Assembly: GCA_009911065.1 (NCBI GenBank)
Contig: QXWR01000002.1
Span: forward strand, 1-64,000
Source: Clostridiaceae bacterium
Lineage (GTDB): Bacteria > Bacillota > Clostridia > Lachnospirales > Lachnospiraceae
DNA: 64,000 nucleotides
Reading direction: 5' to 3'
This document shows positions 51,570-57,099 of the stretch, piece by piece (position 1 is the stretch's first letter; the number at the start of each line of letters is the position of its first letter). The position numbers and the translations under genes were made by a program. Below the pieces are notes generated by a model that saw only the letters and a list, made by a program, of their open reading frames with translations, was not told the DNA's origin and searched no databases.

Positions 51570-52358
51570 ATGAAGCCAAAACTGGAGGTCTGCGGGGTCA
51601 GTTACTCCTACCACACGCCAGACGGCGAAACCCCCGCCCTTTCTCATATATCCTTTACCGTTCCCACCGGAGAATTTCTTGCAATCGTCGGACCTTCCGG
51701 CTGCGGCAAGTCCACTCTGCTTTCCCTGCTGTGCGGCCTGATAGAGCCGGAGGAAGGCTCTGTTCTCATGGACGGCATTCCCATAAAAGAAGGACACGCC
51801 GGCATCGGCTATATGCTCCAAAAAGATCATCTGTTCGAGTGGCGCACCATTTACGGCAATGTATCCCTGGGACTGGAAATTCAAAAAAAACTAGATGACC
51901 AGGCCCACAATCATTTAAAAGAAATGCTTGCCGCTTATGGGCTAAACGGTTTTGAAACTGCCCATCCTTCCGAATTGTCCGGAGGAATGCGCCAGCGGGC
52001 CGCTCTCATTCGCACCCTTGCCTTGAAACCGGACCTGCTTCTTTTAGACGAGCCATTTTCCGCTCTGGACTATCAGACCCGGCTCTCGGTCTGCGACGAC
52101 ATCAGCAGCATCATCCGGCGGACCGGAAAAACTGCCATTTTAATCACCCACGACCTGTCAGAAGCCATCAGCACTGCTGACCGGATTATCATTCTGTCTC
52201 GTCGTCCCGGCAAAATCAAAGCCGTATTGCCCATAGACTTTCCTCCGGAATATGCCAGCCCATTAAAGCGCAGAAATGCAGGAGAATTTTCCTCTTATTT
52301 CAATCAGGTATGGGAGCTGTTACAAGATAATTTTTTAACAAAAGATATTGAAAAATAG
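51570..52358 (+). CDS. NitT/TauT-family ABC transporter ATP-binding protein
   Basis: The motor ATPase of a SsuB/TauB-type importer, 262 residues. Walker A GPSGCGKSTLL near 45-55, Q-loop YMLQKDHLFEWR, signature LSGGMRQRAALIRTLA, Walker B LLLLDEPFSALD, and the switch His in ITHDLSEAI. AAAGGAGG before the ATG supports the start. Its natural partner is the permease on the opposite strand at 56162-56968; the CooS operon lies between. No substrate-binding protein is in the window. The substrate (nitrate, sulfonate, bicarbonate, pyrimidine precursor or a metal complex) is undecided. Confidence 0.88.
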   Translation: MKPKLEVCGVSYSYHTPDGETPALSHISFTVPTGEFLAIVGPSGCGKSTLLSLLCGLIEPEEGSVLMDGIPIKEGHAGIGYMLQKDHLFEWRTIYGNVSLGLEIQKKLDDQAHNHLKEMLAAYGLNGFETAHPSELSGGMRQRAALIRTLALKPDLLLLDEPFSALDYQTRLSVCDDISSIIRRTGKTAILITHDLSEAISTADRIIILSRRPGKIKAVLPIDFPPEYASPLKRRNAGEFSSYFNQVWELLQDNFLTKDIEK

Positions 52359-52490: not shown

Positions 52491-54374
52491 ATGAATCAAT
52501 GTTACAGCTGCAACACCTGCAAAAGCGCAGACAAACCATTGGAAGCTTACATTGCAGGACTTCCCATGGAAACCTCCCACCACCGTGTGGAAAGCCAGAG
52601 TACCAAATGCGCATTCGGTCTTCAAGGCGTGTGCTGCCGCCTTTGTTCCAACGGTCCCTGCCGGATCACACCGGAATCTCCCAGAGGAATCTGCGGCGCC
52701 AATGCAGATACCATCGTCACCAGGAACCTGCTTCGGGCTGTGGCCTCTGGCTCTGGCTGTTATATTCATGTTGTGGAAAACACAGCTCTGAATGTAAAAA
52801 ACACAGCCAAAACCAAAGGCGAAATCAAAGGCATTCACACTTTAAACCGGCTTGCCTCCCTTTTTTCCATTGAGGAAGAGGACATCCACAAACGGGCGGA
52901 AGCTGTGGCTGATGCAGTCTTAAAAGATCTTTACCTGCCAGAATATGAAAAGATGACCCTGACCGAAACACTTGCTTACCATCCCCGGTACGAAAAATGG
53001 AAAGAACTGGGCATTCTCCCTGGAGGAGCCAAATCCGAAGTGTTCCACGGCGTGGTGAAATGTTCTACCAACTTAAATTCAGATCCAGTCAATATGCTTT
53101 TGGATTGTCTGAAGCTGGGAATTTCCACGGGAATCTATGGACTGGTTCTCACCAACCTGCTCAATGATATTGTGCTGGGCGAACCAGAGATCCGCCTTGC
53201 CCCGGTTGGACTGCGGGTCATTGATCCAGACTACATAAACATTATGATTACCGGACATCAGCACTCCATGTTTACCTTCCTTCAAAATCGCCTCACCGAT
53301 GAAGATGTAAAAGAAAAAGCAAAAAAAGCCGGAGCAAAAGGCTTTAAGCTGGTAGGCTGTACCTGTGTGGGACAAGATTTACAGCTTCGGGGCGCTCATT
53401 ATACCGAGATTTTTGACGGACATGCAGGCAACAACTATACCAGCGAGGCAATTTTAGCCACCGGAGGAATCGATGCAGTCATCTCTGAATTTAACTGCAC
53501 CCTTCCGGGAATTGAACCAATCTGCGATGCGTTAAAAATCAAACAGATCTGTATTGACAACGTGGCCAAAAAAGCCAACGCCCAGTTAAAAGAATTTGAT
53601 TTTGAGAATCGTCCGGCTGTGACCGATGAGATCATTGATGAGGTAATTGCTTCCTATCAGATGCGCCGGGGCGTTGTACCTATGAACCTGCTGCCAGACC
53701 ATGGCAACTCCAACACCCTTACAGGCGTCAGCGAAACCTCTCTGAAAAATTTCCTGGGCGGAAACTGGCAGCCGCTGATTGATTTGATTGTGGCCGGAGA
53801 CATTAAAGGCGTGGCCGGTGTGGTAGGCTGTTCGAACTTAACTGCCAAAGGCCACGACGTTCTGACTGTGGATTTGGTAAAAGAACTGATTGCCAAAGAC
53901 ATTATTGTTTTGACTGCCGGCTGCTCCTCAGGCGGAATCGAAAACTGCGGTCTGATGACCCCGGAAGCTGCCAAATATGCTGGTCCGAAACTTCGGGCAG
54001 TATGCGAAAAGCTGAACATTCCTCCGGTTTTAAACTTTGGACCTTGTCTGGCCATTGGACGGCTGGAGATTGTGGCCACCGAACTGGCGGAAGCCTTAAA
54101 GGTAGATTTGCCCCAGCTTCCCTTAGTTCTTTCTGCCGCTCAATGGCTGGAGGAACAGGCCCTTGCTGACGGCTGTTACGGTCTTGCCCTTGGCCTTCCT
54201 CTCCACCTGGGTCTTCCGCCTTTTGTAACCGGAAGCAAAGTTGCCGTACAAGTGCTGACCGAAGATATGAAACAGCTGACCGGAGGCCAGGTGATTATCA
54301 ATGACGACGCAAAAGCATCTGCAGACATTTTAGAGAAGATAATTCTGGAAAAGCGCCAGGGACTTCACATATAG
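52491..54374 (+). CDS. cooS: CooS-family Ni-Fe carbon monoxide dehydrogenase homologue, divergent active site
   Basis: Classical CooS interconverts CO and CO2. 627 residues. D-cluster Cys 40 and 48 and B-cluster Cys 49, 52, 57, 68 are present. All C-cluster ligands are present too: His 256 (GHQH), Cys 292, 336, 447, 478 and 519. Compared with the Carboxydothermus CODH-II sequence as I remember it, the four-His proton channel (H93, H96, H99, H102) is replaced at about residues 85-100 (GCYIHVVENTAL), the acid-base Lys 563 is Gln 556, and Ile 567 is Asp 560. AAAGGAGG sets the start at 52491. The cooF- and FNOR-like genes follow in an operon. It could be a slow or altered CODH, or act on another small molecule. 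Confidence 0.85.
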   Translation: MNQCYSCNTCKSADKPLEAYIAGLPMETSHHRVESQSTKCAFGLQGVCCRLCSNGPCRITPESPRGICGANADTIVTRNLLRAVASGSGCYIHVVENTALNVKNTAKTKGEIKGIHTLNRLASLFSIEEEDIHKRAEAVADAVLKDLYLPEYEKMTLTETLAYHPRYEKWKELGILPGGAKSEVFHGVVKCSTNLNSDPVNMLLDCLKLGISTGIYGLVLTNLLNDIVLGEPEIRLAPVGLRVIDPDYINIMITGHQHSMFTFLQNRLTDEDVKEKAKKAGAKGFKLVGCTCVGQDLQLRGAHYTEIFDGHAGNNYTSEAILATGGIDAVISEFNCTLPGIEPICDALKIKQICIDNVAKKANAQLKEFDFENRPAVTDEIIDEVIASYQMRRGVVPMNLLPDHGNSNTLTGVSETSLKNFLGGNWQPLIDLIVAGDIKGVAGVVGCSNLTAKGHDVLTVDLVKELIAKDIIVLTAGCSSGGIENCGLMTPEAAKYAGPKLRAVCEKLNIPPVLNFGPCLAIGRLEIVATELAEALKVDLPQLPLVLSAAQWLEEQALADGCYGLALGLPLHLGLPPFVTGSKVAVQVLTEDMKQLTGGQVIINDDAKASADILEKIILEKRQGLHI

Positions 54375-54389
54375 AAAGGAGTGGTATAC

Positions 54390-54836
54390 ATGAAACGCAT
54401 CCTGATTGAATATGAAAAATGCGATGGCTGTAAAAACTGCTCCGCTGCCTGTATGCAGGCCCACCGGAAAGACACTGGCACCATCTACGACCTGGATTTA
54501 ACCAACCCAGAAAATGAGTCCCGGAATCGGATATTAAAAGACGCCAAAGGCCAGTACCGTCCTCTTTTCTGCCGTCACTGCGATGACCCGGAATGTGTTA
54601 AGTCCTGTATGAGCGGCGCTTTGTACAAAGATCCGGAAACCGGCCATGTGCTGTACGACCAAACCCGGTGCGGCTCCTGCTTTATGTGCGTGATGAATTG
54701 TCCCTTTGGAGTGTTAAAACCAGACACTCTGACCAAAAGCAAAGTAATCAAATGTGATTTTTGCGCAGATGCAGGGGGAGAGCCATCCTGCGTAAAATCC
54801 TGCCCGAAAAAAGCCATTCATGTGGAGGAGGTGTAA
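54390..54836 (+). CDS. CooF-like 4Fe-4S electron carrier
   Basis: 148 residues with four Cys-rich cluster motifs: CDGCKNCSAAC, CRHCDDPECVKSC, CGSCFMCVMNCPFG and CDFCADAGGEPSCVKSCP, so up to four 4Fe-4S clusters. This is the CooF/HycB-like ferredoxin layout. It would pass electrons between the CooS homologue and the flavoprotein encoded three bases downstream. It begins 15 bases after the cooS stop with AAAGGAG upstream. It is cytoplasmic, with no membrane segment. Confidence 0.88.
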   Translation: MKRILIEYEKCDGCKNCSAACMQAHRKDTGTIYDLDLTNPENESRNRILKDAKGQYRPLFCRHCDDPECVKSCMSGALYKDPETGHVLYDQTRCGSCFMCVMNCPFGVLKPDTLTKSKVIKCDFCADAGGEPSCVKSCPKKAIHVEEV

Positions 54837-54839
54837 AGG

Positions 54840-56063
54840 ATGAAATATGTGATCATTGGCGCTGGCATCGCCGGAGTGGAAGCTGCCAAAACCATCCGCG
54901 TACAGGACCCTGCCGGTGAGATTGTGATGGTTTCCACTGACACCCATGTCCATTCCCGCTGTATGCTCCACAAATATATCTCTGGTGAACGGGATGAACA
55001 GGGCCTGGATTTTACGGAAGAAGATTTTTTTGAGAAATACCACATTGAATGGAAAAAGGGGATAACTGTAAAAAGTATCCATCCAGACAACAAAGAAATT
55101 ATACTGACAAACGAAGAGCATATTGCTTATGACAAGCTTCTCATCGCCGCAGGCGCCGACAGCTTTATTCCTCCTGTGGGAGATTTGCGGAAAGCCTCCA
55201 ATGTATATGGTCTGCGGAACCTTTCCGACGCTCAGTCCATTGTAAAAGAAGCAGAACAGGCAGAACAGGTTCTGGTCATCGGCTCCGGACTGGTAGGTTT
55301 GGATGCTGCCTATGGACTTTTGGAACGGGGAAAGAAACTGACTGTCGTTGAGATGGCTGACCGGATTCTTCCGGTTCAGTTAGATGCCCATGCTGCTAAA
55401 GCTTACCAGGAAGCCTTTGAAAAAGCAGGGGTCCGGTTTGTGCTGGAACGAAAAGCATCCCAGGCCGTTTGTGAGCCAGATGGCAAAATTCACAAAGTAA
55501 TCTTGGACAACGGAGATGAAATTCCCTGTGACCTGATTATTGTGGCTGCTGGTGTCCGTCCGGCGATCTCCTGTCTGGAAGGCAGCGGCATTGCTTGCGA
55601 CCGGGGAATCACGGTAGATGCCTCCTTAAAGACATCTATGGATGATATTTACGCTGCCGGAGATATTACAGGGTTATCCGGTATCTGGCCCAATGCTGCT
55701 GACCAGGGGCGGATTGCCGGCAAGAATATGTGCAGCGTTCCGGCTGAATATACAGACACCTATGCCATGAAAAATACCATCAATTTCTTTGGTCTCATCA
55801 CCCTCTGCGTAGGGAGAATCCGAGAAGAAGAAGGAGATGAAATTCACATCAAAGAAGACCACACCCAGTATAAACGGGTAATCTTAAAAGACGGAAAGGT
55901 GCAGGGAATTTTACTTCAGGGTAATATTGCCGGCGCCGGATTCTGGCAGTATTTGATTAAAAATCACATCGACACCAGGCTTGTCAGACAAGATATTTTT
56001 AACATCAGTTATGGAGATTTCTACCAGACCGGTGAAAAAGGCAAGTATGAGTGGAAACTGTAG
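54840..56063 (+). CDS. NAD(P)H/FAD-dependent oxidoreductase of the CooS operon (FNOR)
   Basis: 407 residues, pyridine-nucleotide-disulphide oxidoreductase type. FAD motif IIGAGIAGVEAAKTIR at the N-terminus, NAD-binding GSGLVGLDAAYGLLERGK near 145-165, and FAD-contact AAGDITGLSGIWPNA near 275. A Cys in HSRCMLHKYISG near 40 sits where NADH oxidases carry a redox Cys. In cooS-cooF-FNOR clusters this protein is thought to couple the ferredoxin-like protein to NAD. It is the last gene of the operon; a terminator follows. Confidence 0.85.
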   Translation: MKYVIIGAGIAGVEAAKTIRVQDPAGEIVMVSTDTHVHSRCMLHKYISGERDEQGLDFTEEDFFEKYHIEWKKGITVKSIHPDNKEIILTNEEHIAYDKLLIAAGADSFIPPVGDLRKASNVYGLRNLSDAQSIVKEAEQAEQVLVIGSGLVGLDAAYGLLERGKKLTVVEMADRILPVQLDAHAAKAYQEAFEKAGVRFVLERKASQAVCEPDGKIHKVILDNGDEIPCDLIIVAAGVRPAISCLEGSGIACDRGITVDASLKTSMDDIYAAGDITGLSGIWPNAADQGRIAGKNMCSVPAEYTDTYAMKNTINFFGLITLCVGRIREEEGDEIHIKEDHTQYKRVILKDGKVQGILLQGNIAGAGFWQYLIKNHIDTRLVRQDIFNISYGDFYQTGEKGKYEWKL

Positions 56064-56161: not shown

Positions 56162-56968
56162 TTACACGAATTTTTCCAGCCATGCAATCCCCTGATACAA
56201 AACCGCTGACAAAATACAGAGAATCACAATACTCATCATGACCAAATCCAGCTTAAACACCTGACTCCCATAAATAATCAGATACCCCAGCCCTCTCTGA
56301 GCGGCCAGAAACTCCCCGATAATCACTCCCACCAGGCAAAGTCCAATATTCACCTTCATATTGCTGATAATAAGAGGTATTGACCCAGGAAGAAGCACCT
56401 TCACAAGGACATCCTTTTGCGTTCCCCCCAAAGAGCGTATTAGTTTTATCTTATCTGGGTCTGTCTGCATAAATCCTGTATGCAAGGTCAAAATTGACCC
56501 GAAGACTGCCACAGACACAGCCGCCACAATGATGGTCCGCATGTGATTTCCCAGCCACACAATCAAAAGAGGCGCCAGAGCAGACTTTGGCAGACTGTTC
56601 AGCATGACCAGATACGGCTCCAGGATCTCCGAAAGACTCCGGCTCGCCCACAAAGCCACTGCCACTGCCACCCCTGCTGCCACCACCAGAAGAAAGCTTA
56701 CCAACGTTTCAAAAAGCGTAACCCCAATATGAATAAAAATACTTCCGTCCCTTGCCATGTTCACAAAACAGGTTCCGATTCTTACAGGGGAACTAAAAAT
56801 AAACGAATCAATCCATCCAAACTCTGCAAACAGCTCCCACAACGCCAGTAAAAGCACCAAAAGCATCCCCCGGCAAATCCTTACCCGGCTTTTGTGCTGA
56901 TGTTCTCTTGCAAGAAATTCCTGTTGCGCCAGAGAAGGAACCGCCTCAGCTTTTTGTTGGCTTTTCAT
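56162..56968 (-). CDS. NitT/TauT-family ABC transporter permease
   Basis: A SsuC/TauC-type membrane subunit, 268 residues with about six helices. The coupling loop holds SLPKSALAPLLIVWLGNHMR and, later, EFLAAQRGLGYLI, both typical of this family. AAAGGAGAC before the ATG at 56968 sets the start; the frame from 57001 is longer but lacks an RBS. It probably works with the ATPase encoded at 51570-52358. The two genes now face each other across the CooS operon, an unusual split. Confidence 0.87.
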   Translation of the reverse strand: MKSQQKAEAVPSLAQQEFLAREHQHKSRVRICRGMLLVLLLALWELFAEFGWIDSFIFSSPVRIGTCFVNMARDGSIFIHIGVTLFETLVSFLLVVAAGVAVAVALWASRSLSEILEPYLVMLNSLPKSALAPLLIVWLGNHMRTIIVAAVSVAVFGSILTLHTGFMQTDPDKIKLIRSLGGTQKDVLVKVLLPGSIPLIISNMKVNIGLCLVGVIIGEFLAAQRGLGYLIIYGSQVFKLDLVMMSIVILCILSAVLYQGIAWLEKFV

Positions 56969-57099
56969 GTCATGTCTCCTTTCCTGCACCAATCCAATCA
57001 CACGTTCTAAATCCGTCTACTTTTATGGTATGCCATCCTGCAAAAAAAGTGCCGCACAACATTTCTGCTGTGCGGCTTCCATCTATTATTTTCCCTTTG

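Follow-up and report, generated by a model that had tools for sequence, protein, structure and literature searches.

The window analysed here, the first 64,000 nucleotides of contig QXWR01000002.1 from a gut-dwelling Clostridiaceae bacterium (Lachnospiraceae; assembly GCA_009911065.1), carries on its plus strand a cooS gene (52491-54374, 627 residues) for the catalytic subunit of an anaerobic carbon monoxide dehydrogenase (CODH). The gene has been maintained, is near certain to belong to CODH clade C, structural group C-1, and lies in a cooS-cooF-FNOR operon. The residue pattern of its product was described in 2019, and the protein is a representative of a known family, not a new kind of CODH. 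As to its role, we favour, with a probability of about four in ten, a redox reaction linked to stress, in which a small molecule is most likely reduced at the expense of NADH; this would lie outside carbon fixation and involve at most slow turnover of CO.

The CooS pocket and its assignment to clade C

The reading frame is unbroken from an ATG at 52491, preceded by AAAGGAGG, a good ribosome site, to a stop at 54374, and in a profile search its product reaches 746.8 bits against TIGR01702 (cut-off 478), which identifies a full-length anaerobic CODH catalytic subunit. Every ligand of the B-, C- and D-clusters, all of which an earlier note on this DNA had described as kept, is present at its aligned column: the D-cluster cysteines C40 and C48 and the B-cluster cysteines C49, C52, C57 and C68 (52608-52694, plus strand, as are all CooS features below), and a complete C-cluster set of H256, C292, C336, C447, C478 and C519. 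The spacing C40-x7-C48-C49 makes the D-cluster type II, defined as Cys-(X)7-13-Cys-Cys. An extra N-terminal CxxCxxC motif (C4, C7 and C10; 52500-52520), typical of group C-1, was absent from that earlier account. The second sphere is where the pocket departs from convention; CODH-II residue numbers are used to describe it. The acid-base His and Lys that are the hallmark of canonical E/F-type CODHs are not present in the aligned query. Tyr91 occupies the His93 site, close to a histidine of the query's own (H93, CODH-II position 95; 52761-52769), and the segment QALAD (54156-54170) places Gln556 at the Lys563 site and Asp560 at the Ile567 site, two exchanges that the earlier note had read correctly. 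In C290-T291-C292 (53358-53366), C292 retains ligand Cys295 and the Cys that should precede it has become Thr291, a change that the earlier note does not mention. Residues 518-524 form PCLAIGR around ligand C519 (Cys526; 54042-54062). This motif had also been reported, with SCVDNSR given as the normal state; the E/F rows usually read SCVDISR (Ile in 41 of 44, Asn in three), so the Ile of PCLAIGR is not unusual. PDB titles list CODH-II mutants at H93, H96, K563, I567 and C295. The alignment thus shows a CODH scaffold whose D-, B- and C-cluster ligands are intact inside a non-canonical second sphere; the protein would be expected to form a homodimer and to hold metal at these sites.

The alignment behind these statements comprises the query, three PDB references (the 6vwy row is D. 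vulgaris CODH) and 200 loci. The relatives considered are the best 80 of 466 named loci passing a scan (76-94% identity), and a phylum-wide search of 398 genomes yielded 17 full-length clade C loci, each with at most about 1.5 kb per side. The scan selected by the patterns SA[AP]QWLEE and CCRLC[SA]NGP, and within these stretches some of the conservation follows from the selection itself; Tyr91, Gln556, Asp560 and residues 519-524 fall outside them. Across 121 clade C rows, from which two loci that are the window again (L001, L025) were left out, Tyr91, Leu520, Gly523, Arg524 and Asp560 are invariant, Thr291 is Thr in 121/121 where the E/F rows have Cys in 44/44 (two PDB references included), and Gln556 is kept in 120/121. 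The sole row without Gln (L051) has Pro; its sequence ends just past the site and may contain a sequencing error. The clade C rows outside the pattern-selected set are invariant (41/41) at Tyr91, Thr291, Asn335, Phe516, Leu520, Gly523, Gln556 and Asp560. Against 16 near relatives dN is 0.04-0.08, and dS is saturated in 10 of the 16 pairs and 1.5-2.2 in the remaining six, for which omega is 0.017-0.039. With the pocket near-invariant and omega so low, the altered pocket is, as far as sequence comparison can tell, under strong purifying selection: a maintained design, not decay.

The earlier note also held that a four-His ladder was gone and that the enzyme had lost its proton channel. None of the four ladder columns is commonly His in the 121 clade C rows, and to this extent the observation stands, but the ladder is not general in ordinary CODHs: the 44 E/F-type rows have His at H93 and H96 in 44/44 each, at H102 in 33/44 and at H99 in 0/44. 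As the full ladder is missing from all 44, a lost proton channel is an overstatement, and the slow CO oxidation by CooS of Thermoanaerobacter kivui, which has been placed in clade C (PMC8683389), would speak against it as well, provided that this enzyme is representative. A nearby His, H93 of the query, is found in 121/121 clade C rows and 15/16 clade D rows. An alignment shift that would hide the His and Lys elsewhere is judged unlikely, with the ligand columns nearby in register and the same states recurring throughout clade C.

Clade letters were given by matching residue states to Table 2 of PMC6344411 (Inoue et al. 2019), and the tree holds no sequence named clade C in print. In that table groups C-1 to C-4 combine all C-cluster residues with His-to-Tyr and Lys-to-Gln exchanges, and group C-1 has an additional N-terminal motif of two to four Cys. 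The query displays every sequence feature of C-1, namely a complete C-cluster, Y91, Q556, a type II D-cluster and the N-terminal Cys motif. At five diagnostic positions clade C reads Tyr-Cys-Cys-Gln-Asp (122 rows including the two window repeats, and one more, L051, in which Pro replaces Gln), clade D Tyr-Cys-Cys-Lys-Asp (11 rows) or Tyr-Glu-Cys-Lys-Asp (five), the E/F type His-Cys-Cys-Lys-Ile (44) and clade B His-Cys-Asp/Glu-Lys-Ala (19); two rows, L192 and L152, have a gap there. L192, a partial locus at a contig start, has Gln and Asp and is not among the 17 phylum-wide loci, nor is a partial high-scoring match in genome G368. The 120 clade C loci include genomes entered more than once under different handles, and the distinct clade C rows number 111. 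In a FastTree phylogeny of 188 distinct rows (L001, L025, L192, L152, L171 and 11 identical rows left out) each group forms an exact split: C with 111 rows and support 1.0 (0.817 when the tree is re-rooted), C plus D with 126 rows and 1.0, D with 15 and 0.954, E/F with 44 and 0.956, and B with 18 and 1.0. The query falls among the other Tyr/Gln sequences in this phylogeny, a check that the earlier note had proposed. A published count conflicts with Table 2: in PMC11338639, 179 clade C genes survive filtering that reportedly demanded the acid-base His as well as the Lys. Three clade C cooS genes of 78-80% identity (L081, L089, L097) come from records of Treponema and Spirochaetia, a distribution that points to transfer of the gene out of Clostridia.

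A predicted model of CooS (pLDDT 80.6, with residues 1-59 below 50) supports the fold alone. Its best Foldseek match in the PDB is, narrowly, CooS-V of Carboxydothermus hydrogenoformans (clade D-1, 7b7q; E 2.8e-46, TM 0.90), with D. vulgaris CODH close behind (E 1.5e-45, TM 0.86), and matches so nearly equal mean that the fold alone cannot tell the two types apart. CooS-V and the query both have Tyr91, Asn335 (before the second ligand Cys), Phe516, Gly523 and Asp560, residues found in 121/121 clade C and 16/16 clade D rows and different in the 44 E/F rows. CooS-V differs in having Glu for ligand Cys295 and in keeping Lys563, where the query has Cys (C292) and Gln.

Operon partners, regulators and genomic distribution

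Within a few bases of the end of cooS begins a gene for a CooF-like ferredoxin (54381-54836, plus strand; alternative start ATG 54390) with 16 Cys and four predicted [4Fe-4S] clusters, followed by one for an FNOR-type FAD/NAD oxidoreductase (54840-56063, plus strand; PF07992), whose best NCBIfam match is PadH, under its cut-off. These two, at 54381-56063, are neighbours expected of C-1: PMC6344411 links C-1 and C-2 to FNOR, CooF and an NsrR/IscR-like regulator, the last as a network association that is not obligatory, and PMC13056359 (eLife 2026) lists FeS proteins (72%), NAD(P)/FAD oxidoreductases (71%) and transcriptional regulators (58%) beside clade C genes. Residue pattern and operon are therefore those of the published groups C-1/C-2 with CooF and FNOR (PMC6344411; PMC13056359), and the suggestion of an undescribed redox system falls away. 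Alongside the shared ligands, His-to-Tyr and Lys-to-Gln exchanges, type II D-cluster, N-terminal motif and CooF/FNOR genes, the query copy differs from group C-1 of PMC6344411 in having no Rrf2 gene in the window and NitT/TauT ABC genes at its flanks. The cooS1 gene of C. autoethanogenum (group C-2 per PMC6344411) likewise precedes a ferredoxin-like gene and an oxidoreductase; it coexists with CODH/acetyl-CoA synthase (ACS), in contrast to the query genome, where no other CODH and no ACS were found.

The operon is widely kept. Among the best 80 of the 466 relatives CooF adjoins cooS in 78/80, FNOR in 75/80 and both in 74/80, two loci (L065, L072) ending too early to reveal FNOR, and 11 of the 17 phylum-wide loci have both. 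In three distant phylum-wide loci (L183, L184, L185) the CooF and FNOR matches share one open frame of at least 497 residues that continues past the available stretch, an arrangement that favours physical coupling. Six others (L173, L176, L179, L180, L181, L186) have an Rrf2 gene upstream and no CooF or FNOR match within the available stretch; one of the downstream genes of L181 looks by eye like a cytochrome b.

Phylum-wide, the steadiest neighbour is a regulator. An Rrf2 gene lies directly upstream of cooS in 16 of the 17 phylum-wide loci, and an Rrf2 match was found in 43 of the 80 relatives, a few of which have little upstream DNA; one example scores 82.1 bits for PF02082. Aligned, 57 Rrf2 rows (40 from relatives, 16 from the 17 phylum-wide loci and one from a clade D locus) have three Cys, spaced by about six and by seven to eight residues, in 55/57, and a following His in 53/57. 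IscR and NsrR, Rrf2 proteins that bind Fe-S clusters, have a similar pattern, and the upstream regulator is predicted to be of the Fe-S type. A Rex-like box with at most two mismatches stands upstream in eight of the 80 regions scanned, which are those of 79 relatives and of the window itself, against about 0.5 expected from shuffles and about one from random stretches, and six of the eight are Blautia records. The eight loci concerned (L052, L078, L079, L082, L087, L093, L095, L104) have no Rrf2 match, and in L079, L082 and L093 the palindrome is TTGTTATAATCTTAACA[AG], containing TATAAT. No clear signal came from FNR and PerR/Fur patterns in a scan of 41 upstream regions that had no shuffle control. 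Published expression data point to stress. The C. difficile operon cooS-CD0175-CD0176, which by its gene order would belong to clade C, is induced by sigmaB and grouped with aerobic and nitrosative stress genes (PMC7494833), and it falls in a fur mutant (PMC6311696); in C. ljungdahlii a group C-1 cluster is reported to rise on O2 exposure (PMC6344411).

The source genome, a draft of 5.37 Mb in 284 contigs (completeness 100, contamination 6.23), yielded a single PF03063 match overall, so that within these contigs neither a second CODH nor a hybrid cluster protein (HCP) was found, and no PF03598 match, by which test CooS is not a CODH/ACS component. At least one classified CODH is present in 64 of 299 genomes of the family (61 exceed the family cut-off, three have copies below it that are full-length or broken, and a 58-bit fragment in G105 is left out of the count), distributed as E/F in 18, C plus E/F in 12, B in 12, C in 11, B plus E/F in six, D in four and B plus C plus E/F in one. 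Clade C is thus carried by 24 of 299 genomes, and in 11 of them, the source genome included, it is the sole CODH found and comes with no full-length ACS. ACS was counted as PF03598 above 190 bits (37 genomes), weaker matches below 41 bits in frames of 231-274 residues being excluded; on this count full-length ACS is present in 13/13 genomes with C and E/F and in 0/11 with C alone. A strong match to CooC divides the carriers in much the same way, with 13/13 against 1/11, the one being the source genome (one of the 13, G121, supplied the CooC search query itself); at a threshold of 1e-10 nine of the 11 C-only genomes yield no CooC match, and one more yields only a match of 57 bits. Since 11 of 24 carriers have no other CODH or full-length ACS and mostly lack CooC, we think that CooS stands outside carbon fixation. 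The earlier suspicion that it is no ordinary CODH of CO metabolism gains support from the same 11 of 24 carriers and from the Rrf2 neighbour.

A missed acs cluster in the source genome was considered and rejected, as the open reading frames in 20 kb around the CooC gene of contig C228 include no CODH. That gene shares C228:11861-14348 (L206) with a DUF3786 gene and another CooC-like gene, and by eye genes nearby resemble those of mobile elements; G013 has a comparable CooC pair on contig C4, apart from the contigs of its classified CODHs. In the clade C-only genome G148 a PF03598 match of 30.6 bits, above the Pfam cut-off, lies in a 247-residue frame beside the 57-bit CooC-like match (C23:280203-281489), and other genomes have similar short PF03598 frames. 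Gene absence should not be read too strictly: enrichment cultures of 'Ca. Galacturonibacter soehngenii' (Lachnospiraceae) show CO dehydrogenase activity without canonical genes (PMC7000372).

Weighing the candidate functions

In the favoured reading electrons would move between NAD(H) and the C-site by way of the FNOR flavin, the CooF clusters and the D- and B-clusters, a path suggested by the gene content, by the single CooF/FNOR frame in three distant loci and by the copurified CooS-CooF of T. kivui. The C-site would act much as hybrid cluster proteins do, reducing an oxidised species of nitrogen or oxygen, and CO turnover would be slow at most; both the direction of the flow and its substrate we infer. 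PF03063 spans HCP and CODH (by its name and PMC9311411), and the query, with 22.6 bits against TIGR01703 (Hybrid cluster protein; cut-off 360.8), is not itself an HCP. CooS-V offers a precedent: its Fe-S-O hybrid cluster is without Ni and no CO activity was detected in the experiments reported in PMC9311411. Energetically, both readings describe downhill reactions, whether CO is oxidised or an oxidised nitrogen or oxygen species is reduced. What tips the balance slightly towards the reductase is the type of regulator, together with the induction by stress seen in relatives, the genomes that have clade C alone and the resemblance to CooS-V. Driven by NADH, CO2 reduction would reach only nanomolar CO at equilibrium (an estimate from -520 and -320 mV), which makes it an unlikely principal function. 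A narrower version, in which clade C CooS would use NADH to reduce nitric oxide, hydroxylamine or some similar oxidised small molecule, retaining all Ni,Fe-cluster ligands, controlled by an Fe-S Rrf2 in many lineages and autonomous in gut bacteria without CO metabolism, is doubtful as it stands.

A number of observations weigh against the favoured reading. All six C-cluster ligands are kept, and Ni could bind. For CooS-V, PMC9311411 reports that NO was not reduced beyond background and that hydroxylamine was reduced only slowly, with a kcat of 0.13 per s. At the query operon the regulatory argument is bare: no Rrf2 (NsrR/IscR-like) match occurs in the 64 kb window, and no Rex-like box above chance, the best having three mismatches, which shuffles reach in 3.6 regions. 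The source genome has a CooC homologue of 73% identity (C228:11867-12622). HCP is present in 6/11 carriers and 79/251 other genomes without full-length ACS (p 0.18). The T. kivui CooS, clade C by published assignment, is needed for growth on CO (PMC8683389), and a cooS1 mutant of C. autoethanogenum grows worse on CO and better on H2/CO2 (PMC4895105). A related proposal, clade C as a substitute for HCP, was rejected, as HCP occurs in 16/24 carriers and 98/275 others (p 0.004), the opposite of the direction expected.

The strongest rival, which we regard as nearly as likely as the reductase, is a slow, low-flux CO dehydrogenase that would oxidise trace amounts of gut CO and hand the electrons on, by way of CooF and FNOR, to NAD+, perhaps in support of oxygen defence. 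The NAD couple lies at -320 mV. Transfer from CO would be downhill by about -39 kJ/mol, given the E0' of -520 mV for CO2/CO quoted in PMC8776680. The metal ligands are all there, as is the CooC homologue of the source genome, and CO as an electron source for oxygen detoxification has been proposed for C. ljungdahlii (PMC6344411). T. kivui CooS-CooF oxidises CO, if slowly: 13.9 U/mg with methyl viologen and 0.5 with ferredoxin, compared with 213.9 and 111.5 for AcsAB (PMC8683389). A protein 96% identical to it is taken as the CO-oxidising enzyme of another acetogen (PMC10213532), while PMC13056359 doubts the T. kivui enzyme as a representative on the ground that the strain is CO-adapted; in the literature searched, which left out most subscription papers, no other purified clade C enzyme was found. 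Extracts of G. sulfurreducens reduce NADP+ with CO, and its CooS-CooF-FNOR operon is under a putative CO sensor (PMC4703632). The poorer growth on CO of the cooS1 mutant fits as well, but the same study reports that an acsA mutant with cooS1 and cooS2 intact, grown on fructose plus CO, did not oxidise CO and released some (PMC4895105). Also against CO oxidation are the loss of the acid-base His and Lys, as mutating such residues lowers it (PMC6344411), and the steady upstream neighbour, a regulator predicted to be of the Fe-S Rrf2 type in 16/17 loci, a comparison that did not include a search for CO sensors. Moreover, a strong CooC match is missing in 10 of the 11 clade C-only genomes.

A redox sensor or electron buffer with no substrate of its own, serving for example organisms with a working CODH, has been proposed for clades C and D (PMC13056359), a study that stresses the co-occurrence of clades C and E. 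Our counts show such an association, as clade C meets E/F in 13 of 24 carriers and E/F is found in 24 of the 275 other genomes. Nearly half of the carriers nevertheless have clade C alone, which fits poorly with a purely auxiliary role and argues against the published idea that clade C merely assists a working CODH. If the protein did no more than store electrons, its substrate-side pocket would not have to be conserved, yet it is so to the same degree as the ligands. NAD-linked partners adjoin in 74/80 relatives, though in just 11/17 phylum-wide loci. Such a role is therefore unlikely, while a decaying CODH heading for loss, suggested by the two lost acid-base residues and the want of one-carbon genes in the operon, can be dismissed in view of the near-invariance of 121 rows, omega of 0.017-0.039 in the six computable pairs and an intact operon.

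Clades B, C and E together make up 92% of host-associated Ni-CODH clusters (PMC8776680), and PMC13056359 considers that no conclusion on clade C activity is possible and expects it to be low or nil. Genomes in which clade C is the sole CODH found, without full-length ACS and, in the source genome, also without HCP, offer a clean genetic background for its function.

Flanking genes

The operon is flanked by ABC transporter genes that are probably bystanders: upstream a NitT/TauT-type ATPase (51570-52358, plus strand) and downstream, on the opposite strand, a permease (56162-57001, minus strand). A binding-protein gene was not noticed beside them, and none was specifically searched for. The transporter was rejected as a part of the system, as linkage recurs in two of the 80 relatives (an ATPase orthologue above 250 bits, with the permease in the same two). 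PMC6344411 prints NitT/TauT ABC neighbours as a trait of clade B. Locus L041 has an ABC layout similar to that of the window, and in L040 the ATPase lies farther upstream.

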